From a virus: DNA of 21,385 nucleotides. The stretch lies in IMG/VR virus record IMGVR_UViG_3300047369_000620, positions 1 through 21,385 of that record. One strand, 5' to 3'. A program made the translations under genes and the position numbers. A model generated the notes under the pieces. That model did not search any database. It saw only the letters and a program-made list of their open reading frames with translations, and was not told the origin of the DNA. How positions within the stretch are numbered: position 1 is the first letter of the stretch; each line of letters begins with the position of its first letter. This document shows, one piece after another, positions 2,513-16,795 of the stretch.

Positions 2513-2534
2513 CTCCAACAAAATATAAGATTCC

Positions 2535-2542
2535 GATAAATA
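2535..2542 (+). promoter_or_regulatory. Late promoter octamer GATAAATA
   Basis: GATAAATA followed by CATGT, 7 of 8 bases matching the T4 late consensus TATAAATA. By T4 geometry the start of transcription would be near 2548, giving a leader of about 140 nt for the fibre gene at 2688. It is intergenic and recurs in the same form upstream of other units in the window. Confidence 0.7.
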
Positions 2543-2550
2543 CATGTACT

Positions 2551-2589
2551 TGCCCCAATTGGCATGCGGATGTATTTCGGGCATACATC
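2551..2589 (+). other. Two small hairpins in the fibre-gene 5' leader
   Basis: TGCC (2551-2554) can pair with GGCA (2561-2564) around a 6-nt loop, and GATGTAT (2569-2575) pairs perfectly with ATACATC (2583-2589) around a 7-nt loop. There is no T-tract, so this is not a standard terminator. They lie right after the predicted late start site and could stabilise the mRNA 5' end. Short stems like these can also occur by chance. Confidence 0.4.
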
Positions 2590-2687
2590 GTAAAACGCAG
2601 TCAAAATCTTCTAGGTTGCACACACGCAGACAACAATTCAGCAACCAATATAATTAACGTTAAAAAATATTTTAGGAGAATATAAAA

Positions 2688-5600
2688 ATGGCATACGCGA
2701 TTCAAAGAAGAAGAGGTACGTCCACAGAACATAATTCCTTTACAGGTCTTGTTGGTGAAATCACGATTGATACTACCAATAACACCATCCGAGTTCACGA
2801 CGGTAGCACGGCTGGTGGTCATAGACTTGCGAAATACTCAGAAATTAACACGCAAGAGAACATCGAAGATGCGGTAAGTGGTTTACTTACAGCAGGTTCG
2901 GGTATTAGTTTATCATACGATGATGCCGCAGGCACATTAACAATTACTAATACAACCTCAGCGGGTGATATCGAAGCAGTAACGGCAGGAGATGGTTTAA
3001 GTGGAGGCGGTACTAGTGGAGCAGTTTCATTAGCACTAGACCTTAATGAACTAACAGCCGCGGCAGTAGATGTAAGTGCAGACAGCATTGCAATTATTGA
3101 CGCAGGTGACAGTAGTTCGAAGAAAGAAAGCATAGCAGATTTGGCTACAGCAATGGCTGGAACAAATTTAACAGCATCATCAGGAACATTAGGATTTGCT
3201 GACTCAGTAATGGATGCTAGAATTAGCAACGCAATTAAAGATGAAGATAATATGGCTAGTGATAGTGCTACTCATGTTCCTTCACAGCAGTCAGTTAAGG
3301 CTTTTGTTGCTTCACAAATAGCAACTAAAGACAATACAGATGAAATGACAGAAGGTTCAACTAACCTTTACTTCACAAATGCTAGAGCCAGAGGTGCTAT
3401 TAGTGTTGGTGGAGATTTAGCATACAACAGTGGCACAGGTGTAATTAGTTTTACTAACGACGCAGGTGATATTGAAGGTGTTACTGCTGGAGACGGTTTA
3501 ACAGGCGGCGGTACAACAGGTACAGTCGGTCTAAACATAGGACAAGGTACAGGTATTACTGTAAACGCAGATGATATAGCAGTAAACATGGGTGCCTTCG
3601 ACACAGATAATTTAAGCGAAGGTTCAAGTAACCTTTATCATACAACAGCAAGAGCCAGAGGCTCAGTTAGTGTTACTGACGCAGGCGGAGACGGAAGTCT
3701 TGCTTACAACAGTACATCAGGTGTTATTACTTACACAGGCCCAAGTGCCGCAGAAGTTAGAGCACATCTAACTGCAGGTGACGGTTTAGATGTTAGTAGT
3801 GGTTCATTCTCAGTAGATAATACTGTAGTTAGAACAAGTGGTACACAAAGTATTGCTGGTGCTAAAACATTTAGTAATGACATAGTCGTTTCAGGTAACT
3901 TAACAGTTAGCGGAACACAAACAACGGTCGCAACAGAAACTTTAACTGTTGATGACAACATGATTGTTCTTAACAACAACGAAGCAGGTACTCCTTCACA
4001 GGACGCAGGTATTGAAGTTGAAAGAGGAACATCAACTAACGTTAAATTCCAATTTAAAGAAAGTACAGATAGATGGCAGTTTACAAATGATGGTTCAACA
4101 TTCTTTAATTTACCAACAAGTACAGCCGATGTTGCAGAAAATACTAATTTGTATTATACAAATGCTAGAGCAGATGCTAGAATTACAGCGGCACTTATTG
4201 ATGAAGATAATATGGCTTCTAATAGTGCTACTAGACTTCCAAGTCAGCAAAGTGTTAAGGCATACGTCGATGGACAAACAACTGACGAAACAGCAGAAGG
4301 TTCAAGTAACTTATACTATACCGATGCTAGAGTTAAAAATTACTTAGGCGGTGGTTCGTTTGATGGGCATATTATTCCAAGTGCTAACATTACATATGAC
4401 TTAGGTTCATTAGCGAAGCAATGGCGAGACATATACGTTGGTCCAGGATCTTTATACGTTAACGGACAGCAAGTGTTATCTGATAACTCAGGTACAATTA
4501 CTGTTAGTGCGGACACTAACCAAAACATTAGTGTTATTTCAACAGGTTCAGGTGATGTTGAACTTACGGCGGGTGGAGCAATTCAACTTAAATCAGACAT
4601 TACTCTAACAACTAATAAAACAATTAGTTCAACAGGTGGTGTTAAGTTTGCTTCAAACGTAAACATGAACAGTAACAACATTAACAACCTAGATGATCCG
4701 GTTGCGAACCAAGATGCGGCTACTAAAGCCTATGTTGACGCAACAGCACAAACAACTGAAGAAGTACAAGATATAGTAGGTGCTTTGATTAGTGGTAGTG
4801 GAAATATTTCTGCTACATACAATGATTCAGCAGGTACTTTAGTAATTAGTGAAGCATTAACAACTACAGATATTACCGAAGGCGACAATAAGTATTTCTC
4901 AAATGCTAGAGCCAGAGGTGCTGTTTCAGTAACAGACGCAGGTGGTGATGGTAGTTTAGCATACAATAGTACATCAGGTGTTATTACTTACACAGGGCCA
5001 AGTGCTTCTGAAGTAAGAGCACATTTAAGTGGTGGAACAGGTATTACTTATAATAGTAGTACAGGTGTTATTACTACTACAGATGGCGATATTGATATTC
5101 ATAATTTAAGTGGATATGTTGCTAACGAACATATTGATCACTCAGGTGTTAGTATTATAGCAGGAACTGGTTTAACTGGTGGTGGAACAATAGCCGCAAG
5201 TAGAACTGTAAACGTTGGTGCTGGTACAGGTATTACTGTAAACGCAGATGACGTAGCAGTAAACATGGGTGCCTTTGATACAGACGATTTAAACGAAGGC
5301 TCTACAAACTTATACTTTACTAACGAAAGAGTAGACGACAGAGTTAACGCATTGATCGTAGACGGAAACGGTATTGACGCAGTTTATGACGACGCCGCAG
5401 GAACTTTAACATTATCAACACCATCAGGTACTGCTGGTAATGGTTTAACTTACAGTTCAGGTGTTATTAACGCAGTTGGCGGAGACGGTATTACAGCAAG
5501 TGCTAACAGTTTAGACTTAGACAGTTCGGTTGTTAGAACAACTGGTACACAAACAATAGCAGGTGCTAAAACGTTTAGTGACGCAGTAGTAATGAACGGC

Positions 5601-6905
5601 GACTTAACTGTTAACGGTACAACAACTACAGTTAATTCTACAACAGTTTCAACAGGTGACAACATTATTATTCTTAATAGTGACGTTACTGGTACACCAT
5701 CAGAAGATTCTGGTTTTGAAGTTGAAAGAGGCGACAGCACTAATAAGCAATTCCTATGGAAAGAGTCTACTGACAGATGGTTAGCAGATGCTCCATTAGA
5801 TGCTACAGGTTATTACATTACAGGCGTAGGCGAAGTAATTAATAGTTCAGGTGCGTGGACTGGCTCAAGTTCAGGACTTAAAGGTGAAGTTGGACCAACT
5901 GGACCACAAGGACCACAAGGTAACATAGGACCTCAGGGTGCTACAGGACCTCAAGGTGCTCAAGGACCACAAGGAACTGCTGGAGATAAAGGTGCCACAG
6001 GTGCTACAGGACCTCAAGGTGCTCAAGGACCAGCAGGATCAAACGGATCAAATGGTTCAGACGGTGATAAGGGACAAAAAGGTGAAGTAGGTGCTCAAGG
6101 ACCGCAAGGTAATACAGGTGCTCAAGGCTCTACTGGTGCTAAAGGACAGAAAGGTGAAATTGGTGCTCAGGGACCACAAGGTGCCACTGGTCCTACAGGG
6201 CCACAAGGTAACCAAGGTGGACAAGGTGCTCAAGGACCACAGGGACAAAAAGGTGCTACTGGAACCACAGGTGCTACAGGACCTCAAGGTGCTCAAGGTG
6301 GACAAGGTCAGAAGGGTGCCACAGGTGCTCAGGGTGGACAAGGTGCTACTGGACCAACAGGACCATCAGGTAATCCATTCCCAGGCGGTACATTTAGTGG
6401 TGATATAACTACTAGAAACATTATTGCTACAGGACCTTCAGGAACTTATAACATCGGATCAAGTAGTGTTAAATTCGGAACCATGTATGCTAATACCTTT
6501 AACGGTACAGCAACATCGGCTCAATATGCGGATTTGGCAGAAAGATACGAAGCAGATAAGCCTTTAGAACCAGGTACAGTAGTGTGCTTTGGTGGTGATA
6601 AAGAAGTAACAGCATGTGCTCAAGAAGGACATCATAGTGTAGCAGGTGTAGTTTCGACTAACCCGGCTCACTTAATGAATGCCGAAGCAGGCAGTGAGGC
6701 AACTCACCCAGCAATAGCATTAGCAGGAAGAGTTCCTGTTAAAGTAGTTGGACCAGTACACAAAGGTGACTTATTAGTAAGTTCCGGTGTTGAAGGTCGT
6801 GCTAAAGCAGACAACGATGCTAAAGCAGGTAGAATCCTTGGTAAAGCAATGGAATCAGCAGGCGACGGAGAGCATGTAATTGAAGGACTGATTAACTTAA
6901 TGTAA
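2688..6905 (+). CDS. Large tail fibre protein with Mtd-like N-terminus and collagen-like shaft
   Basis: A 1405-residue structural fibre. The start is fixed by a good ribosome site (TAGGAGAA, 2673-2680). Residues 1-48 resemble the Mtd N-terminal domain: RRRGTSTEHNSFTG, then GEITIDTTNNTIRVHDG and GGHRLA. In phages this domain attaches receptor-binding proteins to the baseplate. Then come beta-rich modules with repeated EGSTNLYFTNARARG-type units, and twice a module with VERG and KESTDRW. A collagen-like Gly-X-Y shaft spans about residues 1064-1228, and the C-terminal domain ([32 protein letters not shown]) is shared with the upstream fibre. Internal duplications are visible in the DNA (see repeats). 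It follows a late promoter and leader and ends at a strong terminator. Assignment as a fibre is firm; its place on the virion is inferred. Confidence 0.9.
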   Translation: MAYAIQRRRGTSTEHNSFTGLVGEITIDTTNNTIRVHDGSTAGGHRLAKYSEINTQENIEDAVSGLLTAGSGISLSYDDAAGTLTITNTTSAGDIEAVTAGDGLSGGGTSGAVSLALDLNELTAAAVDVSADSIAIIDAGDSSSKKESIADLATAMAGTNLTASSGTLGFADSVMDARISNAIKDEDNMASDSATHVPSQQSVKAFVASQIATKDNTDEMTEGSTNLYFTNARARGAISVGGDLAYNSGTGVISFTNDAGDIEGVTAGDGLTGGGTTGTVGLNIGQGTGITVNADDIAVNMGAFDTDNLSEGSSNLYHTTARARGSVSVTDAGGDGSLAYNSTSGVITYTGPSAAEVRAHLTAGDGLDVSSGSFSVDNTVVRTSGTQSIAGAKTFSNDIVVSGNLTVSGTQTTVATETLTVDDNMIVLNNNEAGTPSQDAGIEVERGTSTNVKFQFKESTDRWQFTNDGSTFFNLPTSTADVAENTNLYYTNARADARITAALIDEDNMASNSATRLPSQQSVKAYVDGQTTDETAEGSSNLYYTDARVKNYLGGGSFDGHIIPSANITYDLGSLAKQWRDIYVGPGSLYVNGQQVLSDNSGTITVSADTNQNISVISTGSGDVELTAGGAIQLKSDITLTTNKTISSTGGVKFASNVNMNSNNINNLDDPVANQDAATKAYVDATAQTTEEVQDIVGALISGSGNISATYNDSAGTLVISEALTTTDITEGDNKYFSNARARGAVSVTDAGGDGSLAYNSTSGVITYTGPSASEVRAHLSGGTGITYNSSTGVITTTDGDIDIHNLSGYVANEHIDHSGVSIIAGTGLTGGGTIAASRTVNVGAGTGITVNADDVAVNMGAFDTDDLNEGSTNLYFTNERVDDRVNALIVDGNGIDAVYDDAAGTLTLSTPSGTAGNGLTYSSGVINAVGGDGITASANSLDLDSSVVRTTGTQTIAGAKTFSDAVVMNGDLTVNGTTTTVNSTTVSTGDNIIILNSDVTGTPSEDSGFEVERGDSTNKQFLWKESTDRWLADAPLDATGYYITGVGEVINSSGAWTGSSSGLKGEVGPTGPQGPQGNIGPQGATGPQGAQGPQGTAGDKGATGATGPQGAQGPAGSNGSNGSDGDKGQKGEVGAQGPQGNTGAQGSTGAKGQKGEIGAQGPQGATGPTGPQGNQGGQGAQGPQGQKGATGTTGATGPQGAQGGQGQKGATGAQGGQGATGPTGPSGNPFPGGTFSGDITTRNIIATGPSGTYNIGSSSVKFGTMYANTFNGTATSAQYADLAERYEADKPLEPGTVVCFGGDKEVTACAQEGHHSVAGVVSTNPAHLMNAEAGSEATHPAIALAGRVPVKVVGPVHKGDLLVSSGVEGRAKADNDAKAGRILGKAMESAGDGEHVIEGLINLM
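3661..3770 (+). repeat. Internal fibre module, copy 1 (partner 4921-5030)
   Basis: It encodes SVTDAGGDGSLAYNSTSG followed by VITYTGPSA and EVRAHL. The copy at 4921-5030 encodes the same peptide with one visible change (A to S). The first half of the DNA differs at many silent sites, while the second half, from AGTACATCAGG onward, is almost identical. This is an intragenic duplication, possibly partly homogenised. Confidence 0.8.
4921..5030 (+). repeat. Internal fibre module, copy 2 (partner 3661-3770)
   Basis: Second copy of the SVTDAGGDGS...GPSASEVRAHL module. A further shared block, encoding GTGITVNADD and AVNMGAFDTD, occurs at about 3545-3620 and again at about 5222-5300. Together these suggest that the fibre grew by module duplication. 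Confidence 0.75.
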
Positions 6906-6980: not shown

Positions 6981-7044
6981 CACTTGTAGAGAGTAACAGA
7001 ACACACACCCTACAGATACAATATAACAGAGTGTGGAAAATTTT

Positions 7045-7341
7045 ATGGAAGATATCTTTAAATTGATAGCAGAGGTAGGAGCACCGATTGCCGGTAGTTT
7101 GGTGATGGGTTTTTTTATATTCTTAGTTATAAAACAAATAATGGAAGGTATAGTAGATCAAGTTAAGACCTTAACTGGATTTTGTAAGATGCTCGAATCA
7201 AGAGCAAGTACAATGAGCAATGAAATGATGAAAATTGATTTACTTGTGAGTAGTGCTTTAGAACTCAGACCCGATATAGAACGAATCGCCAGAGCAGAAA
7301 ACTTTGTTGAGGATGGTAAAGTCGACGCGAGGAGAGATTAA
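7045..7341 (+). CDS. Small membrane protein with coiled coil, holin-like architecture (A)
   Basis: 98 residues from the ATG at 7045. A GTG at 7033 would add four residues, but the ATG gives better agreement with the downstream paralogue; neither has a strong ribosome site. One hydrophobic segment (about residues 10-32, GAPIAGSLVMGFFIFLVI) is followed by a helical, charged region likely to form a coiled coil. It is the first gene of the curli-like operon, and its stop TAA overlaps the next ATG by one base. It aligns along its whole length with the next protein (LI..G.P, FIF, then a methionine-rich helix), so the two are probably paralogues forming a membrane complex. Small phage proteins of this shape include holins and holin-like peptides, but no family is recognised with certainty. 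A curli accessory role is also possible. Confidence 0.75.
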   Translation: MEDIFKLIAEVGAPIAGSLVMGFFIFLVIKQIMEGIVDQVKTLTGFCKMLESRASTMSNEMMKIDLLVSSALELRPDIERIARAENFVEDGKVDARRD

Positions 7342-7637
7342 TGGATGTAGGACAACTGATTAATGATTACGGTTTTCCAGTTGTTATGGCAGTAGGGTTA
7401 GGTTACTTTATATTTTATATTTGGCGATTTATAGGCGAACACATTGATCCAGCATTAGCAGAAATGCACATAGCATTAATTAGAGTAATTGATAAAACTA
7501 GAATGCTTGATCAAGATATGATTCGCTTACAGCAAAAAGTTAATGTTGTTTTGGAATACAAAGCAAGACAACAAGTTTTAGAAGAGGCTAAACAAAAAGA
7601 AGCACTTCGTAAACAAGAGGAAATGGAGGAAGAATGA
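7341..7637 (+). CDS. Small membrane protein with coiled coil, holin-like architecture (B)
   Basis: 98 residues. The N-terminal hydrophobic segment (about residues 11-30, YGFPVVMAVGLGYFIFYIW) recalls the YGFP-plus-transmembrane start of small holin-like peptides of the YvrJ/BhlA type. The rest is a long charged helix ending in a Glu/Lys/Gln-rich tail (residues 70-98), which should form a cytoplasmic or periplasmic coiled coil. It overlaps the csgF-like gene by ATGA. Its similarity in length and pattern to the preceding protein suggests a gene duplication and a heteromeric pair. Function is not established. Position just before outer-membrane pore genes makes a role in envelope passage or lysis plausible, but this is inference. 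Confidence 0.75.
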   Translation: MDVGQLINDYGFPVVMAVGLGYFIFYIWRFIGEHIDPALAEMHIALIRVIDKTRMLDQDMIRLQQKVNVVLEYKARQQVLEEAKQKEALRKQEEMEEE

Positions 7638-8134
7638 AAAAAGTTACAGGAACACATTTAGGTATAATGGTAATGATAACATTTTTTGTAGGTCAATGTT
7701 ATGCGGATGAAATTAAGTTTAAATTTAAAAGTCCTAGTTTTAGTGGTCAAGGAACTGGTGCTCATTATTTAACAATTGAGAACCAAGAAAAATCACGTAG
7801 AGACAAGATAAAGGAAGATATAGAAGCCGCACTTGCCAGAGCAGAAAGGGAAAACGAAAACTCAACAATTAACAAGTTCATTAGAAATTTAGAGAGTAGA
7901 ATTTACAGTCAAATTTCTAAGGGCCTCGTTGATAGTATGTTTTGTGACCCAGCAACGGTTATAACATGTACAAACTCTGATGCCGGTAGTTTTGAAATAG
8001 AGGGCAACACAGTTACATACGTTAAAACAGTAAATGCGGATGGACTAGAAATAATTAAACTGACTATTGTAGATCCAGACGGTACTATTACTGAAATTGA
8101 AATACCAATTGGAATAGGTAATATAGGCGGGTAA
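7634..8134 (+). CDS. csgF: Curli assembly protein CsgF-like
   Basis: 166 residues with a signal peptide (cleavage likely after CYA, residue 24). The mature N-terminus, FKFKSPSFSGQGTGAHYL, matches the E. coli CsgF start (TFQFRNPNFGG), the part that plugs into the CsgG channel. A helix follows (INKFIRNLESRIYSQI, matching LDNFTQAIQSQI), then a C-terminal beta region ending in VDPDGTITEIEIPIG (matching VTDRKTGQTSTIQV). Between these lies a charged insertion not present in E. coli CsgF. CsgF forms the outer ring of the curli pore and couples secretion to nucleation. Its stop overlaps the csgG start (TAATG), keeping the F-G pairing. Two cysteines (CX7C) are unusual for the family. Start supported by AGGAGG-like bases just upstream. 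Confidence 0.85.
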   Translation: MKKVTGTHLGIMVMITFFVGQCYADEIKFKFKSPSFSGQGTGAHYLTIENQEKSRRDKIKEDIEAALARAERENENSTINKFIRNLESRIYSQISKGLVDSMFCDPATVITCTNSDAGSFEIEGNTVTYVKTVNADGLEIIKLTIVDPDGTITEIEIPIGIGNIGG

Positions 8135-9165
8135 TGAATTATAAAAACTTGATCTTGTTATTTGCAGGAACGGTGTTATTTACTGGTTGTGCCAGCATTT
8201 CAATTCCCGGTGATCAAGCATGTCAAACAGATTTTTTAGAATGTGTTGAAGAGCCAAAACAAGTTGAATTACCGACTTATAGAAAACTCAGATACTTACC
8301 ACCAAGCAAACAAATGCCAGTGGTAGCAGTATATAATTTTACAGACCAAACAGGACAAAGAAAAAGTCAAGACGGAGTTGCTAGTTTTAGTACAGCAGTT
8401 ACGCAAGACGCAAAAAGTTTATTAATAGACGCTCTTAAAGCCGCAGGTTCAGGAGATAATCCAAAAGGAACATGGTTTAGAGTTGTCGAAAGAGGACTTG
8501 GACTAGATCATTTAGTCAGAGAAAGGCAGATAGTACGAAGTACTCGATCTGAACAGGCCAAAGCGGAAGGTTTAGAAGAGTTCCAAGAACTACAGCCAAT
8601 GTTATTTGCTGGAATGATATTAGAAGGTGGTATTATAGGATACGACACTAATGTTGAAACAGGAGGTAACGGAGCAAGATATCTTGGTATTGGTACAACA
8701 AATCAATACCGTAGAGATAGTGTGACAGTATCATTAAGAGCCGTAAGCACACTCACGGGTGAGGTGATACTGAATGTACAGACATACAAAACCATTTTGA
8801 GTACTGGTCAAGCAGGTGATGTATTCCGATTTTTAGATATGGATACAAAATTGCTTGAATTGGAAAGTGGTATGACAGAAAACGAAAGTGTAACATTCGC
8901 AGTAAGATCAGCGATCGAAGCCGCGGTGTTATCCTTAATAGAGCAAGGTGACGAGAGAGGATACTGGAAGATTGTTTACCCTGACGATTGGGATGAAGTA
9001 GTAGCCGCACAAGAACAGGCATACTGGATGAAACTCAACTCAGAAAATCTTTTAACGGACGCGGAAAAAGTGGGCAACGTTAGTGATCCTGAGTCACAAC
9101 CTTTATGGAAGAAAATACTTCTTAAAGGTGAAACCAATATTGGAGATATAAAAAATGAAGACTAA
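8134..9165 (+). CDS. csgG: Curli secretion channel lipoprotein CsgG
   Basis: 343 residues. A lipoprotein signal ends at Cys19 (VLFTGC). The CsgG core is unmistakable: VAVYNFTDQTGQ, FSTAVTQDAKSLL, WFRVVERGLGLDHLVRER, GGIIGYDTNVETGGNGARY, LGIGTTNQYRRD, TYKTILS, VFRFLD and the final SAIEAAVLSLI...GYW. CsgG is the nonameric outer-membrane channel that exports curli subunits. Compared with E. coli the constriction loop keeps the Phe corresponding to Phe56, but Asn55 is replaced by Ser and Tyr51 by a polar residue, with a one-residue insertion. An N-terminal linker (about 25 residues, with a CX6C pair) and a C-terminal tail of about 55 residues are additional to the E. coli protein (277 residues). 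It overlaps the curlin gene by 11 bases. CsgG homologues are known from marine T4-like phages, as far as I recall. Confidence 0.95.
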   Translation: MNYKNLILLFAGTVLFTGCASISIPGDQACQTDFLECVEEPKQVELPTYRKLRYLPPSKQMPVVAVYNFTDQTGQRKSQDGVASFSTAVTQDAKSLLIDALKAAGSGDNPKGTWFRVVERGLGLDHLVRERQIVRSTRSEQAKAEGLEEFQELQPMLFAGMILEGGIIGYDTNVETGGNGARYLGIGTTNQYRRDSVTVSLRAVSTLTGEVILNVQTYKTILSTGQAGDVFRFLDMDTKLLELESGMTENESVTFAVRSAIEAAVLSLIEQGDERGYWKIVYPDDWDEVVAAQEQAYWMKLNSENLLTDAEKVGNVSDPESQPLWKKILLKGETNIGDIKNED

Positions 9166-9979
9166 GAATTTAATTAAGAATTTTGTAGTAAATGTCTTCG
9201 CTATTGTAGGGGTGTTGATAGCAAGTCCATCTCTTGGTGCTACAGATAACGAAGTGTTATTAGACCAAGAAGGTAATAACTTGATATTAACAATTTTACA
9301 AGCAGGTAGTGGAAACCAAGTTTCCGGCGATGCGAGTGCCGGATCTGACTTGATTGTAACAGGTGCCAGTTTAATAATTGACATCATACAAGACGGTGAT
9401 AGCAACAAACTATACGGTGATTTAATACTTGATGGAAACGGTTCAAGTGTATTAGATTTTTACCAATTAGGTGATAGCAACGTCTGGGATCTACAAATCG
9501 GCGCACAAGGAAATAGTGCTGACTATACAGACATGTTAGTAGACATACAAGGTGACAGCAACATATTTAATGTTGATATAGCCGGAAATGCTACAGCAGA
9601 AAGTTTAAACTTTGATTTAGTTATACTTGGAGATAGTAACGACTTCTCAACAAGTTTTACTAACAGCAAAGTTTGGGCGGCACAAGGACAAGGCGAATCT
9701 TGTGGCACAAACTGTACAGGGTCAAGTGCTATGGCAGGTATCGTAATCGATACAAGTTCCGTTGTGTGGAACATGGATATTGATGGCGGTAATAACGCCT
9801 TTGCTACTAAGCAAAGCGGTAATTCGGGTCATAGTTTAACAGTAGTGTTAGACGGTAGTAATGGGGACTTTCAATTTGTCCAGGATATGGCCGCAACGTG
9901 TAATCCAACCTGTGAAGGGATAATAGATGTAAACCTAGATAGCGAAAATGCGTCAGTTAGTATTAAGCAGACAGACTAA
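9155..9979 (+). CDS. Curlin-repeat secreted protein (CsgA/CsgB-like)
   Basis: 274 residues with a signal peptide (cleavage likely near SPSLGA, residue 29). The mature protein is low in charge variety and rich in Gly, Ser, Asn, Asp and Gln. It has irregular repeats built on LxxxQxGxxN and GDSNxxxxxI, for example LTILQAGSGNQ, IDIIQDGDSNK and LDFYQLGDSNV, the hallmark spacing of curlin repeats that form amyloid beta-strands. The end, ASVSIKQTD, resembles the CsgB end. No N22-type targeting peptide of CsgA is seen: repeats start directly after the signal peptide. Two CX3C pairs (GESCGTNC, ATCNPTC) are unlike cysteine-free E. coli CsgA. Directly following csgF and csgG, it is the likely export substrate. 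Which of the two curlins acts as nucleator cannot be told. Confidence 0.82.
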   Translation: MKTKNLIKNFVVNVFAIVGVLIASPSLGATDNEVLLDQEGNNLILTILQAGSGNQVSGDASAGSDLIVTGASLIIDIIQDGDSNKLYGDLILDGNGSSVLDFYQLGDSNVWDLQIGAQGNSADYTDMLVDIQGDSNIFNVDIAGNATAESLNFDLVILGDSNDFSTSFTNSKVWAAQGQGESCGTNCTGSSAMAGIVIDTSSVVWNMDIDGGNNAFATKQSGNSGHSLTVVLDGSNGDFQFVQDMAATCNPTCEGIIDVNLDSENASVSIKQTD

Positions 9980-11117
9980 CTGGTTAGCAGTATGTTTACT
10001 GTTATTAACATTCGAGAGTGCCGCTAATGAACCAATTGGCGGCATAATCGAACAAAGCGGAAAGGCAGGCAGTATAGTTCGCCTTTCAGGAGAAGAATTA
10101 AAAGCAAATTTGGAAGCCGATATAGTTAGTTACGATGAAGTAGAAACAGAAAACGGTAGACTTAAAATAGAATTTGTTGATAGTACACAGGTAAGTTTGA
10201 CAGAACACACATATATGGAGATAGACGAATACGTTTATGATCCAGACCCGAGCAAAAGTAAGATGGCTCTTAATTTTGTTCAAGGTACAGCAAGATTTGC
10301 CACAGGCGGATTAGGCTTAGTACCTAAAGAAAATATACAGATACAAACTCCTACTGCCAGTATTGGTATCAGGGGAACAGATTTTACTACTACAGTTGAC
10401 GAACTGGGTAGAAGTTTAGTTATATTGTTACCAGATGAAAACTGTGACGATAGGGTTAAACTTGAAGAAGGTTGTAGACCTTCAGGAAGTATTACAGTTA
10501 CAAACGACGGCGGAACCGTTGTACTAGATGAGGCATATCAGGCAGTTATGGTAAGCACATTTGAAACTAGTCCAACACAACCTGTCGTACTTGTTGATCT
10601 AGACTTAAACATGATTGATAACATGTTTATTGTTAGTAAGCCAGAAGAAATAGTAAAGGCAGAGGAAGAACAACAAGAGCAATTAAAAGGAGACGGTGGA
10701 CTGCTAGACTTTGACGGATTGGACGAAAATGCTATCGAGCAAGACGCATTAGCAGATACCACAGAAGATTTAGAATTTACAACATTAGATATAAATTTTT
10801 TAGATGTTGATTTTTTGAAAGACTTATTAGAAGTTATAGAAACTGAAGTCGATATATTAGCAGAAGATGGCGGTGACGGAGGCGGTAATAACAAACTAAT
10901 AGGCGCGGTGTTTGGTGCTAATCCAGATAACCAATTTAATATTATACCAGACTTAGACGGAAAAGTATTTTTCCTAAGACAGGCGAGTAATACAATTAGT
11001 ATTAAATTAACAAGAGGTTCACAAGCACAATTAGATATCAGAGATAGCGATATGGGAGATAATATTATATGTTTAAGCAGTTGTGAAAACATTATAATTA
11101 CTATTACACAAGAATGA
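9948..11117 (+). CDS. FecR-domain periplasmic or secreted protein
   Basis: 389 residues, with a start 32 bases inside the preceding gene and no strong ribosome site. A signal peptide (about residues 1-26, LAVCLLLLTFESAAN) is followed by a FecR domain: GKAGSIVRLSGE, then FVDSTQVSLTEHTYMEIDEY, LNFVQGTARFATGG and TPTASIGIRGTDF (to about residue 150). A strongly acidic, low-complexity region (about residues 230-315) follows, then a C-terminal beta-rich stretch ending IICLSSCENIIITITQE. That ending resembles the last residues of both flanking curlin-repeat proteins. In bacteria FecR domains are periplasmic sensors or surface modules, and FecR genes are often near CHASE2 adenylate cyclases, one of which is encoded at 14891. 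Its place between two curlin genes suggests co-export through CsgG or a role in fibre anchoring, which is inference. Confidence 0.85.
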   Translation: MRQLVLSRQTNWLAVCLLLLTFESAANEPIGGIIEQSGKAGSIVRLSGEELKANLEADIVSYDEVETENGRLKIEFVDSTQVSLTEHTYMEIDEYVYDPDPSKSKMALNFVQGTARFATGGLGLVPKENIQIQTPTASIGIRGTDFTTTVDELGRSLVILLPDENCDDRVKLEEGCRPSGSITVTNDGGTVVLDEAYQAVMVSTFETSPTQPVVLVDLDLNMIDNMFIVSKPEEIVKAEEEQQEQLKGDGGLLDFDGLDENAIEQDALADTTEDLEFTTLDINFLDVDFLKDLLEVIETEVDILAEDGGDGGGNNKLIGAVFGANPDNQFNIIPDLDGKVFFLRQASNTISIKLTRGSQAQLDIRDSDMGDNIICLSSCENIIITITQE

Positions 11118-12046
11118 ATTTAGACGAAAAATTAAAAAATATGAAACCAAAAGATACGCCCTTATTAGTATTAGGTTACATAATGCTAGGCATGATGTTG
11201 TTATTAAGTACAACAGCAAAAGCCGACGACCAAGAAATAATATTAGAACAAGCAGGTGATGATGTTATTATTCAAACAATTCAAGAAGGATATGATAATT
11301 TAATTAATGTAGACTTAGGAATTGTTAGTTCAGACTCCTCAAATAATATTTTTAGAGTATTACAAGACGGGTTCGATAATGAAGTAAACTTTAGTCTTGA
11401 CGGACAATCTAACGAGATAGCCATATTACAAGAAGGTAATAATCAATATATTGGTTATTCAAGTATATGGGGAGAAGGACACGACCAAGGTGGAGATATT
11501 GACGGTGATAGCAACACATTAAAATTATGGCAAAAATGTAGTTGGTCAAGTTGTAACGAAAATAAAATAGAATTTCACGTAGAAGGTGATAACAATGATG
11601 TCGAAGTTGCTCAAGGATGGTTCTTAGATAAAAACTCCAATAACGGTAATACTAACTGGAGTTATGACTACACTGAACCAGGTGGTAATTTAGTAAGAGT
11701 AGACATACACGGCGACAATAATGATTTTAAAGCAGGTCAAAAACAAGATAGTGCCAGTGTAAATCACAATATGTATGTAAACATATTTGGTGACGGTAAC
11801 GAAGTTTATGCTGGACAAATACAGAATGGAAGCAAAACATTAAACTTAAATATCTACAATGATAATAATGAAGTTTATATAAAACAAAGAAAAAATGGTG
11901 CTCATTCGGCAACTATAAATTTGTATGGAACTTATGGCACAGATTTATATTTAAACCAAGGACATAATTCAGTAGCACAAACATATTCAATAACACAAAC
12001 CTGTGTAACAGTAGGTGGATGTAGTATCTCAGTTACACAAGATTAA
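11114..12046 (+). CDS. Second curlin-repeat secreted protein (CsgA/CsgB-like)
   Basis: 310 residues overlapping the FecR gene by ATGA. A longer signal peptide with a charged N-region (KLKNMKPKD) and a hydrophobic core (about residues 18-33) ends near TAKA. Curlin-type repeats follow at once: IILEQAGDD, IQTIQEGYDN, FRVLQDGFDN, IAILQEGNNQ, and later units of the form GDNNDFKAGQKQ, GDGNEVYAGQIQ and DNNEVYIKQRKNG. The Gln and Asn spacing is that of amyloid strand-loop-strand repeats. Cysteine pairs occur in KCSWSSC and TCVTVGGC. The protein ends SISVTQD, comparable to the last residues of the two upstream proteins. It is the last gene of the operon; no terminator is seen before the sigma70-type promoter that starts four bases after the stop. 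Likely substrate of the CsgG/CsgF pore. Confidence 0.82.
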   Translation: MNLDEKLKNMKPKDTPLLVLGYIMLGMMLLLSTTAKADDQEIILEQAGDDVIIQTIQEGYDNLINVDLGIVSSDSSNNIFRVLQDGFDNEVNFSLDGQSNEIAILQEGNNQYIGYSSIWGEGHDQGGDIDGDSNTLKLWQKCSWSSCNENKIEFHVEGDNNDVEVAQGWFLDKNSNNGNTNWSYDYTEPGGNLVRVDIHGDNNDFKAGQKQDSASVNHNMYVNIFGDGNEVYAGQIQNGSKTLNLNIYNDNNEVYIKQRKNGAHSATINLYGTYGTDLYLNQGHNSVAQTYSITQTCVTVGGCSISVTQD

Positions 12047-12086: not shown

Positions 12087-12263
12087 ATGAAACATATGAT
12101 TAAGTGGCTGAAGATCACAGCCGGCATAAATCTATACTTGTCATTCATAATGACACTTGTCTTTTTGACTTTAATATTCGCTATTGTCTCAGACTACAAT
12201 TTAACAAATGCTGACGAATATGTACGATTCCTTATAAAGGAAGAGTTAGAGGATAGTGATTAG
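12087..12263 (+). CDS. Small early membrane protein, 58 residues
   Basis: The frame runs from ATG at 12087 to TAG at 12261-12263. One transmembrane segment (about residues 13-34, INLYLSFIMTLVFLTLIFAI) is followed by an acidic tail (YVRFLIKEELEDSD). Its start lies 8 bases after a perfect -10 hexamer, so the mRNA would be nearly or fully leaderless; no Shine-Dalgarno motif is present. Its end overlaps the GTG start of the next gene by 8 bases. No family is recognised. Small membrane proteins expressed early by phages often modify the host envelope or exclude superinfection, but nothing here proves such a role. Confidence 0.7.
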   Translation: MKHMIKWLKITAGINLYLSFIMTLVFLTLIFAIVSDYNLTNADEYVRFLIKEELEDSD

Positions 12264-12564
12264 TAAATTCACTGACTCCTTGAGAGTATATTCGGTTGCT
12301 ATAATATTAGCACATATACTTGCGTTTGCTGTATACTTCCCAATAACATCTATGCTAATTATTGCGTTATTAATTCCTTGGTTTTATATGCTGTTAATTT
12401 ATAGCATGGTGTATAACATGGCTAAACGTGATGGTATAGATTGGCCTAAAGAACCTTATCATGCCCTTGTATGGGATGCCGATAACTATTTAACTCCTCT
12501 CTATATTATAGCCGATTACGACGATCCTTTTATTGATTATACGGATTATGACCCACGTTACTAA
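12256..12564 (+). CDS. Small membrane protein, paralogue of the next gene
   Basis: 102 residues from a GTG start with GAGG a few bases upstream. Two adjacent hydrophobic segments (about residues 10-31 and 33-52) are followed by a polar C-terminal half rich in Asp, Tyr and Pro. The region FTDSLRVYSVAIILAH, then AFAVYFP, lines up with HTKSLKIYAYSIFGAH, then AFTYFFP, in the following gene, so the two are probably an old tandem duplicate. Same early unit as the gene at 12087. Function unknown. Confidence 0.72.
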   Translation: MISKFTDSLRVYSVAIILAHILAFAVYFPITSMLIIALLIPWFYMLLIYSMVYNMAKRDGIDWPKEPYHALVWDADNYLTPLYIIADYDDPFIDYTDYDPRY

Positions 12565-12859
12565 ACACACAAAAAGTTTAAAAATATACGCCTACAGTAT
12601 ATTCGGTGCTCATTTTGTTGCTTTTACCTATTTTTTCCCAACAGCAGTTTTTACCTTTATAGCATCTGTATCGATGTTTTTGATATTATACAAATGGGTA
12701 GAATTGACCTATCAAATAGAACAAGCAAATAGAGACAATTTACTTATGTTAATTAGTTCTACAGAACACGAAAGCACAAGAAACATTTTATTACAAGAAC
12801 TATGGTATGCTGATCTTCATAGTCTAGGAGGAGAGCCTTTTACCGAATATAGAATATAG
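12548..12859 (+). CDS. Small membrane protein, paralogue of the preceding gene
   Basis: 103 residues from the ATG at 12548 (MTHVTKHTK). An upstream ATG at 12533 would add five residues and overlap the preceding gene further. Two hydrophobic segments (about residues 14-30 and 32-50) are followed by a helical polar tail (YQIEQANRDNLLMLISSTEH). It shares the SLKIY...AH..AF.YFFP pattern with the preceding protein. It is the last gene of the sigma70-driven trio. Its stop lies seven bases before the next late promoter, with no terminator between. Function unknown. Confidence 0.72.
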   Translation: MTHVTKHTKSLKIYAYSIFGAHFVAFTYFFPTAVFTFIASVSMFLILYKWVELTYQIEQANRDNLLMLISSTEHESTRNILLQELWYADLHSLGGEPFTEYRI

Positions 12860-12865
12860 CAAAGT

Positions 12866-12873
12866 GATAAATA
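12866..12873 (+). promoter_or_regulatory. Late promoter octamer GATAAATA before the lipoprotein gene
   Basis: GATAAATA in the short gap after the gene ending at 12859. Predicted start near 12879, about 50 nt before the lipoprotein ATG. Together with the terminator at 13377-13402 it defines a compact single-gene late unit. Confidence 0.65.
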
Positions 12874-12927
12874 TATTATGTTATAATAACAGATGGTTTT
12901 ATAACAATCTTATATATAGGAGAAGAT

Positions 12928-13248
12928 ATGAATATATTAAAATCTTTCTTCGTAGTTTTATGTTCAGCCGGTTTTGTAGGTTGCGCCTCAGTTGGAGGTG
13001 TTTGGAACGCAGGAACAGAAGTTGTCACAGGTACTGTTGATGCAGTAGTTGGCGGAGCGGCTACAATAACAACAGCAGTTGCTGATGATGTTGTATCTGT
13101 TGGAACTTTAGCAATTGATACAGCACAGACTGTGGTAGTTGCTGGAGCAGACCTTGGTAAAGGTGTTGTAAAAACAGTTTCTGATGAAGTCGACAGACAA
13201 ACAGACGAATTACAAGACGAGGACAAAGACGAACCAAAAAAGGATTAA
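12928..13248 (+). CDS. Small lipoprotein with candidate -1 frameshift site at its end
   Basis: 106 residues with a strong ribosome site (AGGAGAAG) ahead of the ATG. The signal peptide ends in a lipobox at Cys19 (GFVGC). The mature protein is an Ala/Val/Gly/Thr-rich repetitive helix or beta stretch (about residues 25-85: VVTGTVDAVVGGAA and similar) followed by a very acidic/basic tail (DELQDEDKDEPKKD). No family is recognised. The last codons contain the slippery heptamer A AAA AAG (13236-13242), a 6-nt spacer and a hairpin (13249-13269). A -1 shift would replace the last residue by 40 others and give a 145-residue protein ending in CKKNPKECE. The gene has its own late promoter and terminator. 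It could be an envelope or lysis-associated lipoprotein; this is not shown. Confidence 0.8.
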   Translation: MNILKSFFVVLCSAGFVGCASVGGVWNAGTEVVTGTVDAVVGGAATITTAVADDVVSVGTLAIDTAQTVVVAGADLGKGVVKTVSDEVDRQTDELQDEDKDEPKKD

Positions 13249-13269
13249 CCTTCTTCAGTAGGAGTAAGG
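13236..13269 (+). promoter_or_regulatory. Candidate programmed -1 ribosomal frameshift signal
   Basis: The zero-frame codons are CCA AAA AAG GAT TAA, giving the dnaX-type slippery heptamer A AAA AAG at 13236-13242. Six bases later a hairpin can form: CCTT/AAGG (13249-13252 with 13266-13269) and CTTC/GGAG (13253-13256 with 13261-13264), with T13265 bulged and a 4-base loop. A GAGGA Shine-Dalgarno-like motif (13219-13223) lies 12 bases upstream. All three elements of bacterial -1 frameshifting are therefore present in the right order. Confidence 0.5.
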
Positions 13270-13292
13270 AGGAATTAACTACAAAGGAGTTA

Positions 13293-13364
13293 GTGGCTCT
13301 ACTCAATGCTAATATGGATAAAATACTAGCATACTGTAAAAAGAATCCTAAGGAATGCGAATAG
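13293..13364 (+). CDS. Short ORF or -1 frame extension of the lipoprotein
   Basis: In the -1 frame relative to the lipoprotein, codons are open from before 13242 to the TAG at 13362-13364. They encode SKEELTTKELVALLNANMDK, then ILAYCKKNPKECE, which looks like real helical protein. As an independent gene it would need the GTG at 13293 (23 residues), only 3 bases after AAAGGAG, which is too close; the stronger AAGGAGG at 13266-13272 has no standard start at the right distance. I therefore favour it being the tail of a frameshifted lipoprotein. The YCxxNPxEC motif recurs in the protein at 13436. Confidence 0.4.
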   Translation: MALLNANMDKILAYCKKNPKECE

Positions 13365-13376
13365 AATACCAGAAAT

Positions 13377-13402
13377 ACCCTCAAAGAGATTTGGGGGTTT
13401 TT
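13377..13402 (+). terminator. Rho-independent terminator after the lipoprotein unit
   Basis: The stem CCCTCAAA (13378-13385) pairs with TTTGGGGG (13390-13397) around a GAGA tetraloop, with one T-G pair, and is followed by TTTTT. It ends the unit started at the late promoter at 12866. Confidence 0.88.
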
Positions 13403-13422
13403 CTTCTATAATTTTAATTTTT

Positions 13423-13430
13423 CATAAGTA
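13423..13430 (+). promoter_or_regulatory. Degenerate late promoter octamer CATAAGTA
   Basis: It matches NATAAATA except for one A to G change, lies just after a terminator, and ends five bases before the ATG at 13436. That spacing is identical to the octamers at 13920 and 20302 (minus strand), which is the main reason to believe it. Confidence 0.45.
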
Positions 13431-13435
13431 CAATT

Positions 13436-13918
13436 ATGAAGCAAATACTTTTATTACTACTAATGTTACCCTCAGCCATTATAGCACAAGAAAGTACATT
13501 AACAAAGTTTAATTTAGAATATAAGATGCCGATAGATTACAGATATTGCGATTCTAATCCTGTGGAATGTAGACCATTGCCAAGCAGGATACCAAAGTTT
13601 GATATCCAAGAAAGACCCGATAATAAAGAATGGGCAATGTTTTGGACATTACAAATACTAGATATCTATACAACATCTAAAGCATTAAAGTACGACTGTA
13701 TAAAAGAAATAAATCCATTGTTTACTGAAACTCCGAGTGACACAAGATTAGTATTAACTAAAACTATGTTACTTGCTCCTGGATTATTATCAAACGATTA
13801 TTACAAAGAGATTAGTACCAGAGAACTAGAAAATACTAATATTATGTACATGTTTGTAGTTTCTAATAATTATAGATTACTACACGATGCCAAACAAACC
13901 TGTAACAAAATAAGATAA
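13436..13918 (+). CDS. Predicted exported protein of unknown function (DUF5658-like motif)
   Basis: 160 residues with a signal peptide (residues 1-17, MKQILLLLLMLPSAIIA). The mature part has a YCDSNPVECRPLP segment (CX6C) and a region WTLQILDIYTTSKAL, then KEINPLF and TKTMLL. This resembles the D-x-x-TT...E-x-NPL pattern of small membrane proteins of the DUF5658 type, though the match is only a motif. Two more cysteines (YDCIKE, QTCNK) lie toward the C-terminus, giving four in all, consistent with disulfides in an oxidising compartment. There is no Shine-Dalgarno motif; a late-promoter-like octamer places the predicted +1 on the ATG. It stands alone between a terminator and the FNR operon. 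Function unknown. Confidence 0.72.
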   Translation: MKQILLLLLMLPSAIIAQESTLTKFNLEYKMPIDYRYCDSNPVECRPLPSRIPKFDIQERPDNKEWAMFWTLQILDIYTTSKALKYDCIKEINPLFTETPSDTRLVLTKTMLLAPGLLSNDYYKEISTRELENTNIMYMFVVSNNYRLLHDAKQTCNKIR

Positions 13919-13919
13919 A

Positions 13920-13927
13920 AATAAATA
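13920..13927 (+). promoter_or_regulatory. Late promoter octamer AATAAATA at the FNR start
   Basis: AATAAATA followed by CTTCT and then the GTG start at 13933. In T4 the octamer spans -13 to -6, so +1 would be the G of the start codon. It would drive the overlapping genes 13933-16795 as a leaderless transcript. Confidence 0.6.
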
Positions 13928-13932
13928 CTTCT

Positions 13933-14652
13933 GTGTTAAAAGAAAAAGTTATAGAAATCAAACACTATTCAGATAGACTATTCAGTTTTAAAACTACAAG
14001 AGACAAAAGTTTTAGATTTAAGAATGGCGAATTCTGTATGATTGGGTTAGACTTAGAACCTAAAAAGATAATGAGAGCATACAGTATTGTAAGTACAAAT
14101 TACAATGACTATTTAGAATTTTTAAGTATTAAAGTACCCGACGGACCACTGACAAGCAAATTACAGAATTTACAAATAGGAGACGAAGTATTAATTAATC
14201 CAAAAGTTACAGGCAGTTTAGTATGTGATTATCTGTATCCTAAGGATAATTTAATATTGTTAGCAACAGGAACAGGCGTTGCTCCTTTTATGAGCATTGT
14301 AAATGACCCAGCAACGTATGATAGATTTGGGTTTGTATACTTGTTTCATACCGTAAGAAACATCAACGAATTAACTTACATAGAATCGCTAAATACTATT
14401 GAAGAAGAATTACCATTTACATATATCCCAACTGTAACAAGAGAAGATTATGTAAGGCCTGGCCGTTTTTGGCAGTATGTTGAAGACTACTTACCAGGTG
14501 GGTTCCTCAAAGAAAGAGACGGCATAATGGTATGCGGTTCTCCTGAAATGAATAAAGAATGTCGTACTATGTTTAAAACACTAAATTGGCAAGAAGGCAA
14601 TACAGGTGAAATGGGCGACTTCATGTTAGAAAGAGCATTCGTAGATAAATGA
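13933..14652 (+). CDS. fpr: Ferredoxin/flavodoxin-NADP(+) reductase
   Basis: 239 residues, GTG start. It transfers electrons between NADPH and ferredoxin or flavodoxin using FAD. Family motifs are clear: the FAD-binding RAYSIVS (residues 48-54), the NADP-binding ATGTGVAPFMSI (residues 111-122), the CGSPEMN motif (about 200-206) and the bacterial-type C-terminus ERAFVDK, like the AFVEK end of Azotobacter and Rhodobacter enzymes. Length is slightly under the usual 255-275. It lacks a Shine-Dalgarno motif and starts five bases after a late promoter octamer. It overlaps the next gene by ATGA. No ferredoxin or flavodoxin gene lies in the window, so it probably uses a host partner or one encoded elsewhere. 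A phage copy could redirect host redox power to nucleotide reduction or other synthesis, which is inference. Confidence 0.92.
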   Translation: MLKEKVIEIKHYSDRLFSFKTTRDKSFRFKNGEFCMIGLDLEPKKIMRAYSIVSTNYNDYLEFLSIKVPDGPLTSKLQNLQIGDEVLINPKVTGSLVCDYLYPKDNLILLATGTGVAPFMSIVNDPATYDRFGFVYLFHTVRNINELTYIESLNTIEEELPFTYIPTVTREDYVRPGRFWQYVEDYLPGGFLKERDGIMVCGSPEMNKECRTMFKTLNWQEGNTGEMGDFMLERAFVDK

Positions 14653-14894
14653 GTTCACAGAAAATTATCGATGCCTTGCAAAAGGGCGTGATTACTATTG
14701 TATTTAAAAAAATTGGCACAGGTGAAATTCGCACAATGCCGTGTACACTAAACAATGACATATCAAAGCAAACATTACAAATAAAAAAATATTCTAGTCC
14801 AGATGCTGTAATATGCTGGGGACTAGATGTAGGAGCATGGCGTGATGTTAGAGTAGATACTATCATAGAATGGTACGAAGGATATCCCAAGTGA
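14649..14894 (+). CDS. DUF2693-like small phage protein
   Basis: 81 residues between the reductase and the cyclase, overlapping each by four bases (ATGA and GTGA). The pattern VITIVFKKIGTGEIRTMPCT, later CWGLDVGAWRDVRVDTIIEW, resembles phage proteins of the DUF2693 group (VxFxKxDGxxRxMxCTL and WDxxxxxWRxFRxDxI), a small predicted beta-barrel whose function is not known. Similar proteins are common in T4-like marine phages. The operon position reveals no role. A family search would settle the assignment. Confidence 0.7.
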   Translation: MSSQKIIDALQKGVITIVFKKIGTGEIRTMPCTLNNDISKQTLQIKKYSSPDAVICWGLDVGAWRDVRVDTIIEWYEGYPK

Positions 14895-16795
14895 AATGGT
14901 TGTATAGTGGCTATGCTGTAATAGTTTCAATTTTATTACTTACAGCACTTAAAGTAGCAGACCCTACGCCACTAGAGAATATACGAAATCAAACATTTGA
15001 TTCTTATCAGCAACTAGATGAAATTAAACAAAGCAATGACGTTGTTTTATTAAACTTCGGCGAAAATACTTTAGCAACATATGGTCAGTATCCTTTCCCT
15101 AGACAATACTATGCCCAACTAATTGTAGATGTTGCTAGTAAAAACTCGGGTGTACTAGGTTGGACATTAATGTTTCCAGAAGAAGATAGGTTTGGTGGCG
15201 ACGACAGTTTTGCTAGTATTCTAAATCAAAACTTAGTTAATGTACCTGGTGCTAGACGTAACCCGATAAATTATAATGTTCTTAGCCAAACACCAAGTAG
15301 CAAAGGTATTAAAACAAGTGGACCACATATAGGCACGGGTACAATTGGACCTGTTCCAGCAACAGACTTTTTACTTACATGGAAAAATCTAGTAACAAAT
15401 GTTCCTATGTTAGAAGTAGTATCAAACGGAAAAGGCGTTAATGCCTCCGCACCGCAACCAGATTTTGTAACAAGAACATACCCATTAGCAATAGGTGTAG
15501 AAAATAAAATATATCCTAGTTTTGCTATAGAGATGTTAAGGGTTAAAACTGGACAAAAAAGTTATAAAATTAAAACAAGCGAAATAGGTATACAAGAATT
15601 TATGGTTAAAGGGTTCGAACCTTTTGTAACACAACCTGACGGTACAGCATATATACGTTTTAATAATACATTCGAAGAAATAGAATACACAGGAGCAGAA
15701 AGCATACCAGACTTAGGCGGTAAACTAGTAATTGTAGGTGTTACAGCAGAGGGTATTGCTAACCCTGTACCTACTCCAAGAGGCAACCTCTATCCACAGC
15801 ATATACACGCACACATGCTACAAAATATGATTGATGGTACCAATATAACCCGTAACCAGTTATCGCCGCTTATAGAACTTCTGTGTGCGTTGTGTGGCAT
15901 GATTTTAATAGCCATCGCGGTGTATAGATTGCCTTTACTGTGGACAGCACCTATTTCACTGCTGATTTTAGGTGGAGAAGCATACGGTAGTGTGTGGCTA
16001 TATCAAAATAAATTACAATTAGTAGATGCTACTTTTCCTGTGATAAGTGGCTTTTTGATTTTCACACAATCAGCATTTAATAATTTCTACAAACAATACA
16101 AATTACGACAACAAATTAAAGGACAGTTTGGTACTTACATATCCCCGGACTATGTTGATATGTTAGTTAAAGATCCTAGTTTAATGAAACTAGGTGGCGA
16201 AAGAAAAGAAATGAGTTTCATGTTTGCTGACATAGTCGGCTTTACGCCCATATCAGAAAAGTACATGAAAGCAGATGACCCAGAAGGATTAGTAGAACTT
16301 ATAAACAGTTTCTTAGATAAAATGACAAAAATAGTTTTGAAGAACGGTGGTACAATAGACAAGTTCATGGGCGACTGTATAATGGCATTTTGGAACGCAC
16401 CTTTACCATGTGAAAATCATGCTGAGATGGCCGTTAAAACAGCGATAGAAATTGAACTACTTGGTGACGAACTAGAAAAAGAAATGGAAGAACGTGGCCT
16501 GCCAAGAGTGAAATTTGGTACAGGTGTAAATACTGGTACATGTATTGTTGGTAACATGGGTGCTGAAACAAGATTAGATTATAGTGTTGTAGGCGATGCT
16601 GTAAACTTAGGTGCTAGATTAGAAGCACAAACAAGAGCAGAAGATACACCAATTATTGTTTCTGAATATACATACTTACAATGTAGTGATATAGCATTTA
16701 GTAGCATAGGCGAAGTTACTGTAAAAGGTAAAGAAGAGCCTGTTAGAATGTATGCTCCATTGTTTGATGGTGCGGTTAGAAAACTTTACAAGTAA
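14891..16795 (+). CDS. Membrane adenylate cyclase with CHASE2 sensor domain
   Basis: 634 residues from GTG at 14891, which has GAAGGA eight bases upstream and a GTGA overlap; an ATG at 14870 would add seven residues but lacks a ribosome site. An N-terminal membrane segment (about 4-20) is followed by a periplasmic CHASE2 domain (about 25-320), three membrane segments (about 326-395) and a class III cyclase domain (about 430-620). All catalytic positions are present: metal-binding Asp in FADIVGFT (codon 16229) and in DKFMGD (codon 16373), adenine-selecting Lys (16361) and Asp in RLDYSVVGD (16577), and the transition-state Asn and Arg in VNLGARLE (16604 and 16616). It should therefore make cAMP from ATP in response to an envelope signal. 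It is co-transcribed with FNR under a late promoter. Such an enzyme is very unusual in a phage. The gene abuts the convergent gene at 16796 with no gap. Confidence 0.93.
   Translation: MKWLYSGYAVIVSILLLTALKVADPTPLENIRNQTFDSYQQLDEIKQSNDVVLLNFGENTLATYGQYPFPRQYYAQLIVDVASKNSGVLGWTLMFPEEDRFGGDDSFASILNQNLVNVPGARRNPINYNVLSQTPSSKGIKTSGPHIGTGTIGPVPATDFLLTWKNLVTNVPMLEVVSNGKGVNASAPQPDFVTRTYPLAIGVENKIYPSFAIEMLRVKTGQKSYKIKTSEIGIQEFMVKGFEPFVTQPDGTAYIRFNNTFEEIEYTGAESIPDLGGKLVIVGVTAEGIANPVPTPRGNLYPQHIHAHMLQNMIDGTNITRNQLSPLIELLCALCGMILIAIAVYRLPLLWTAPISLLILGGEAYGSVWLYQNKLQLVDATFPVISGFLIFTQSAFNNFYKQYKLRQQIKGQFGTYISPDYVDMLVKDPSLMKLGGERKEMSFMFADIVGFTPISEKYMKADDPEGLVELINSFLDKMTKIVLKNGGTIDKFMGDCIMAFWNAPLPCENHAEMAVKTAIEIELLGDELEKEMEERGLPRVKFGTGVNTGTCIVGNMGAETRLDYSVVGDAVNLGARLEAQTRAEDTPIIVSEYTYLQCSDIAFSSIGEVTVKGKEEPVRMYAPLFDGAVRKLYK

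Follow-up and report, generated by a model that had tools for sequence, protein, structure and literature searches.

Why would a phage carry a membrane-bound adenylate cyclase, what might such an enzyme sense, and what would its cAMP do in an infected cell? These questions are raised by one gene in the stretch of viral DNA analysed here (21,385 nucleotides, hereafter "the window"), which a first-pass annotation had read as a catalytically complete membrane cyclase and had treated as an isolated surprise. The open frame (14870-16795, plus strand) gives 641 amino acids from ATG 14870 and 634 from GTG 14891. The true start is probably GTG 14891, with ATG 14870 as an alternative upstream, because the GTG overlaps the stop codon of the preceding WYL_2 gene as GTGA, has an AAGGA about 8 nt 5' of it, and yields (M)KWLYSGY, the N-terminus of most homologues (MKWLYSGY). 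The gene and its active-site positions, with residues counted from ATG 14870 and conservation scored over 83 viral and 82 cellular homologues, are:

14891-16795, plus strand: CHASE2, transmembrane helices and class IIIb adenylate cyclase (Pfam, GTGA overlap, AAGGA, AlphaFold2 model, PDB matches)
16229-16231, plus strand: metal-binding Asp454 (FADIVGF), the same residue in all 83 viral and all 82 cellular homologues
16361-16363, plus strand: adenine-specifying Lys498 (DKFMGD), in 83/83 viral homologues; Glu in the guanylate cyclase Cya2
16373-16375, plus strand: metal-binding Asp502, invariant in 83 viral homologues
16583-16585, plus strand: Ser572, the second adenine-specifying position (Ser/Thr, class IIIb type); S in 68, T in 14 and D in 1 of 83 viral homologues
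16604-16618, plus strand: transition-state Asn579 (16604-16606; Asn in 82/83 viral homologues) and Arg583 (16616-16618; Arg in 83/83)

Pfam places a CHASE2 domain at residues 22-346 (E 3.8e-29) and a Guanylate_cyc domain at residues 446-624 (E 1.9e-20), and hydrophobic segments were found at 11-29 and 334-352. An AlphaFold2 model (pLDDT 84.5) consists of a helix at the N-terminus, a sensor of alpha/beta type, three long helices (332-353, 356-381 and 388-420) and the cyclase domain, so that CHASE2 lies between an N-terminal helix and further membrane helices, the layout of a CHASE2 membrane sensor. The catalytic part of the model superposes on Pseudomonas aeruginosa CyaB (3r5g) with a TM-score of 0.87 and on CyaC with 0.83, and has the class IIIb cyclase fold. 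We found all the residues expected of a class III enzyme: two metal-binding Asp, Lys with a Ser/Thr partner, and the transition-state Asn and Arg. The first-pass annotation had called both metal Asp and the Asn/Arg pair intact, which is borne out, with no exception at either Asp among the viral homologues. It had also described a Lys/Asp pair specifying adenine; here the Lys holds and the Asp does not, as the partner is Ser572, a position occupied by Ser or Thr in 82/83 viral homologues. In alignments to solved structures, Ser572 falls on a Thr in both CyaB and CyaC, which are adenylate cyclases, and the Lys498/Ser572 positions correspond to Glu/Gly in Cya2, a guanylate cyclase. The pattern is therefore that of class IIIb, the adenylate cyclase assignment stands, and the enzyme should be intact and a producer of cAMP. 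One relative departs from this pattern: the cyclase of phage Melnitz (L083:15001-17049) replaces the transition-state Asn by Ser, has Asp at the adenine position, and may be impaired or altered, so that cyclase activity may not matter in every phage.

The gene is phage-encoded, as had been claimed. Its source is an IMG/VR virus record, a T4-type gp15 and tail fibres lie alongside it, and relatives are encoded on at least 355 viral contigs. A single contig could by itself be chimeric, a concern raised with the original claim, but the same gene, identical or nearly so, and its downstream order recur in four independent contigs (L002, L003, L004 and L005), dozens of contigs have the same neighbours, and orthologues stand in the complete genomes of cultured phages; the probability of an assembly chimera or host contamination is negligible. 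The cultured phages with annotated orthologues are HTVC008M (host Candidatus Pelagibacter ubique HTCC1062) and Melnitz (host OM43 strain H5P1), whose cyclases are 41% and 32% identical to that of the window over nearly the full protein. Two other records surfaced in these comparisons. An Acinetobacter "phage" match (H7; L084, CAKLQH020000011.1) was set aside as a phage cyclase because it sits on host chromosome among mfd and isc genes, with cyaA, and is therefore a mislabelled host contig. A 1.5-kb record named Salmonella phage (OR851715.1, H31) has a csgG-like stretch and is probably host DNA.

The window most likely belongs to a PA5oct/Atu_ph07-like lineage of jumbo phages, distinct from HTVC008M, because the nearest relatives of its gp15 are jumbo phages (the PA5oct group, Phosso and Atu_ph07), the record with a cyclase 89% identical to the window's (L006) has a capsid protein 70% identical to those of PA5oct-type phages, with other phages of about 350-470 kb as its next matches, and a related contig (L062) reaches 250 kb.

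The cyclase is no stand-alone gene, a context that the first-pass annotation had missed. In the window it is the last member of a one-strand series, csgF-csgG-curlin-FecR-curlin-cyclase, that makes up a curli (type VIII secretion, T8SS) cluster:

7033-7341, plus strand: protein of about 100 amino acids whose N-terminal stretch is hydrophobic, the first of two in tandem ahead of csgF (phrog_18771)
7341-7637, plus strand: second member of this small-protein pair (phrog_18771)
7634-8134, plus strand: CsgF (Pfam PF10614, 1.5e-10)
8134-9165, plus strand: CsgG outer-membrane curli pore (Pfam PF03783, 5.1e-48)
9155-9979, plus strand: curlin-like secreted protein 1, C-terminal VSIKQTD (weak Curlin_rpt match, E 0.025; family HMM)
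9948-11117, plus strand: secreted FecR-domain protein, putative CHASE2 partner, C-terminus IIITITQE (Pfam FecR, 5.6e-11)
11114-12046, plus strand: curlin-like secreted protein 2, C-terminus CSISVTQD (family HMM; position conserved in phage loci)
12050-12078, plus strand: perfect sigma-70-type promoter match, TTGACA-17-TATAAT, 4 nt past the curlin-2 gene (12/12 match)
12256-14894, plus strand: variable insert between curlin 2 and the cyclase, encoding two small proteins, a lipoprotein-like protein, a DUF5658-like protein, a flavin/NAD reductase and WYL_2

The family HMM of curlin-like protein 1 also matches curlin-like proteins of bacterial T8SS loci. Upstream, the cluster adjoins the genes of two large tail-fibre proteins that contain collagen repeats and have related C-terminal domains (2-6905). 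It has been previously reported that pelagiphage curli clusters, including those of HTVC008M and Melnitz, contain an adenylate cyclase and FecR, that phage curli clusters derive from Alphaproteobacteria, and that the cyclase is less frequent in podoviral clusters (PMC9599517). Given these reports and the annotated orthologues in HTVC008M and Melnitz, a phage membrane cyclase as such was already known, and the gene loses its standing as an isolated surprise. The published clusters (HTVC008M gp014-gp019; Melnitz genes 99-104) resemble the window in gene order and in CHASE2 plus class III architecture. They differ from it in that the window's structural genes, its gp15 and the capsid protein of its close relative, point to PA5oct-type jumbo phages, that the HTVC008M sensor is only about 30% identical to that of the window (catalytic domain, 61%), and that in the window a promoter-like site and six inserted genes precede the cyclase. 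The small-protein pair also precedes csgF in HTVC008M and Melnitz. A "histidine kinase" has been described upstream of csgF in phage clusters (PMC9599517), which is possibly the phrog_18771 pair; a domain search of the two window proteins (7033-7637) found no histidine-kinase domain.

Linkage to FecR was strict. Where a phage locus was read for 5 kb or more ahead of the cyclase, FecR lay upstream, together with curlin 2, in 14/14 cases, spanning jumbo phages, HTVC008M and Melnitz, and csgG was present wherever the contig reached. No more than about 30 bp lie between curlin 2 and the cyclase start in HTVC008M, in Melnitz and in several of the contigs. The window has 2.8 kb there, with the six other genes and the perfect promoter match, so its cyclase may be expressed independently of the csg genes. 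The same TTGACA-17-TATAAT recurs 7-35 bp after curlin 2 in eight other jumbo-type loci with inserts and was absent from the loci where the cyclase directly follows the curlin gene. This recurrence of a predicted promoter, a consensus match alone, suggests that insert-bearing phages express the cyclase block separately. The site after curlin 2 has the look of a cargo slot with a putative promoter of its own.

FecR also accompanies CHASE2 proteins in bacteria. Around the 80 nearest cellular CHASE2 cyclases (29-38% identical, mostly from Alphaproteobacteria), a FecR gene lay within 500 bp in 42 and within the stretch read in 49; in 31/80 no FecR was found nearby, and many of those contigs end near the gene. 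No FecR was found within 10 kb of some bacterial CHASE2 cyclases. It has been reported that FecR adjoins CHASE2 cyclases in Campylobacterota (PMC9239204) and a CHASE2 histidine kinase in a Burkholderia biofilm operon (PMC5192318), and in two SAR11 genomes (G307 and G110) we found FecR near a CHASE2-SpoIIE protein. This pairing with cyclase, kinase and SpoIIE outputs makes FecR-CHASE2 look like a sensor pair with exchangeable outputs. Such SAR11 genes for FecR and CHASE2-SpoIIE are seen at L229:7969-13987 and L230, with one other gene between them in L229. Bacterial pairs, such as those of Campylobacterota, Bradyrhizobium and other Alphaproteobacteria, resemble the phage arrangement in having the FecR gene beside the cyclase. 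The FecR partners scanned, however, are long exoproteins (six outside curli operons carry RTX, Ig, cadherin or VWA domains in Pfam), whereas the phage FecR has 389 amino acids and a curlin-type C-terminus and lies within a T8SS cluster. CHASE2-gated cAMP synthesis, as proposed here, has a parallel in Sinorhizobium meliloti CyaD1, CyaD2 and CyaK, and CyaD1 lacking CHASE2 makes cAMP constitutively (PMC5498481); the S. meliloti cyclases differ in acting through the cAMP-dependent regulator Clr, and no curli linkage is reported there.

The C-terminus of the phage FecR hints at how it might be tied to the curlins. A strand motif, [VILFMA]x[VILFM]xQ at most 4 residues from the C-terminus, was present in 17/17 distinct phage FecR sequences, 35/39 curlin-like C-termini and 7/11 curlin-like ORFs of bacterial T8SS loci; it was found in 0/46 bacterial FecR partners outside curli operons, against a background of 38/2895 cellular ORFs. 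FecR in a T8SS context may thus be exported or anchored with the curlins, but only as a lead, because the motif, noticed by inspection, is a short one. Structure prediction modelled the FecR domain of the phage protein, with an unreliable C-terminal half (mean pLDDT 58.9).

A bacterial counterpart of the whole module was found on a Caulobacteraceae MAG contig (L085), where csgF-csgG-curlin-curlin-FecR-CHASE2-cyclase form one run between flanks that look chromosomal (glycosyltransferase-, peptidase- and TonB-receptor-like genes). Its FecR carries the C-terminal motif (ending INVTQD) and its cyclase is 38% identical to that of the window (catalytic part, 47%). The locus is cellular and both of its curlins precede FecR, whereas the window has FecR between the curlins. 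It has been stated that FecR and cyclase do not occur within bacterial T8SS operons (PMC9599517), and L085 is a counter-example in one MAG; at six further csgF loci of Alphaproteobacteria, the 15-18 kb read around each contained neither gene.

Within the jumbo-type homologues, whose sensors are 72-80% identical to that of the window, the catalytic domains fall into two types, 87-100% or 47-50% identical to it, and the window's catalytic domain is closer to that of HTVC008M (61%) than to that of the other jumbo type. Each type forms one clade in the catalytic tree, and the two are intermixed in the sensor tree; a more careful sensor tree rejects the monophyly of each (AU P-values 1.9e-5 and 3.9e-4) and requires at least four changes of catalytic type. 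This gives good support for repeated exchange of two catalytic-domain types under one CHASE2 sensor. Within a type, dN/dS was 0.06-0.20 in both sensor and catalytic parts, indicating purifying selection (rows L005 and L013, with a stop character at the start, were left out). Repeated exchange with the active site kept points to an enzyme under active selection in a widespread group of jumbo phages. The earlier view that this is an intact enzyme that should make cAMP, as judged from its residues, dN/dS and recombination with the catalytic residues kept, is likewise supported, and a decayed host gene is ruled out by residue conservation and dN/dS.

What such cAMP could act on was approached through SAR11, the host group of the best-known relative. 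Genomes were picked by a match to the 16S probe SAR11-441R, which we take to be a SAR11 marker. A cNMP-binding domain of any kind was found in 9/147 of these SAR11-family genomes, and the proteins read were FNR-type (Cys-rich) or ABC-transporter fusions; no CRP-type receptor was evident across the 147. Because these domains are scarce and of such types, a classical CRP route appears unlikely in SAR11. No cNMP-binding domain was found in nine phage records, which include two complete genomes. Cyclase matches in the SAR11-family genomes numbered three: a 14.6-kb contig in a SAR11-family bin (L198; G438 contig 11) that carries the phage curli-FecR-cyclase module and is either contamination or from an infected cell, a CHASE2 cyclase accompanied by FecR in a SAR11-family genome of 1.6 Mb (L179), and a fragmentary sequence containing N bases. 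In the two SAR11 genomes whose CHASE2 proteins were read, these carry SpoIIE and no cyclase.

Taken together, these results lead us to favour, with little more than even confidence, a reading in which the inner-membrane class IIIb cyclase is the signalling end of a phage curli module, senses FecR or curli export, and makes cAMP. The phage would export curlin-like proteins and a FecR-domain protein through its own CsgG/CsgF pore; the periplasmic CHASE2 domain would read the state of export, with the FecR protein as the most likely go-between; and the cytoplasmic cyclase dimer would convert ATP to cAMP, so that the cAMP of the infected cell might report or govern the assembly of surface fibres. 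If the host is a SAR11 bacterium, the effector of this cAMP would probably not be classical CRP. More tentatively, and doubtful as it stands, FecR secreted or held by the phage curli machinery could itself be the CHASE2 ligand, making a self-contained sensor of fibre assembly with a cAMP output even where the usual host receptor is missing, and with domains exchanged among jumbo phages. It is rather unlikely that the cyclase senses another periplasmic or environmental cue, such as a solute or envelope stress at lysis, with FecR not its ligand and curli a matter of gene order only. CHASE2 ligands are unknown in general (PMC5192318), and the bacterial cyclases without FecR and the separate promoter-like site before the window's cyclase block would fit such a cue, but the 14/14 linkage across jumbo phages, HTVC008M and Melnitz and the persistence of the FecR-CHASE2 pairing with three outputs speak against it.

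The first-pass annotation had looked to host CRP-type regulators as targets, with changes in carbon use or surface structures. This proposal, which would make phage cAMP act independently of the curli genes, is improbable: cAMP is what the enzyme should produce, bacteria usually sense it through CRP, and the jumbo lineage may have a host with such a receptor, but 138/147 SAR11-family genomes have no cNMP-binding domain and the cyclase is strictly linked to FecR and curlin genes. The proposal is thus undercut for SAR11 and may still hold for the window's own host. It is very improbable that the enzyme makes a cyclic nucleotide to swamp or mislead a host defence, for example Pycsar. PADLOC PycC models do match the catalytic domain (best 2.5e-22), but this resembles the generic Pfam cyclase score, Lys/Ser fits class IIIb adenylate cyclases, and the neighbours are curli genes; the domain was rejected as a Pycsar cyclase on this generic similarity and because no paired effector was found among its annotated neighbours. 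There is equally little to recommend the cyclase as a passenger that arrived with the curli cassette and serves no purpose itself, as the missing transition-state Asn of Melnitz and the lower frequency of the gene in podoviral clusters might suggest, since the low dN/dS and the catalytic residues kept in 82-83/83 homologues through repeated domain exchange run counter to it.

The papers describing phage-borne curli clusters leave their function open. To these accounts we add the jumbo-phage lineage, the exchange of catalytic domains, the C-terminal strand of FecR, the Caulobacteraceae operon, which qualifies a published statement and points to a possible kind of source for the phage module, and the SAR11 receptor gap, which sharpens the question of what phage cAMP does. 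With the tie of the cyclase to FecR and the possible tie of FecR to curli cargo, these clusters may be viewed through a testable picture, in which a sensor would report the export of fibres as cAMP.
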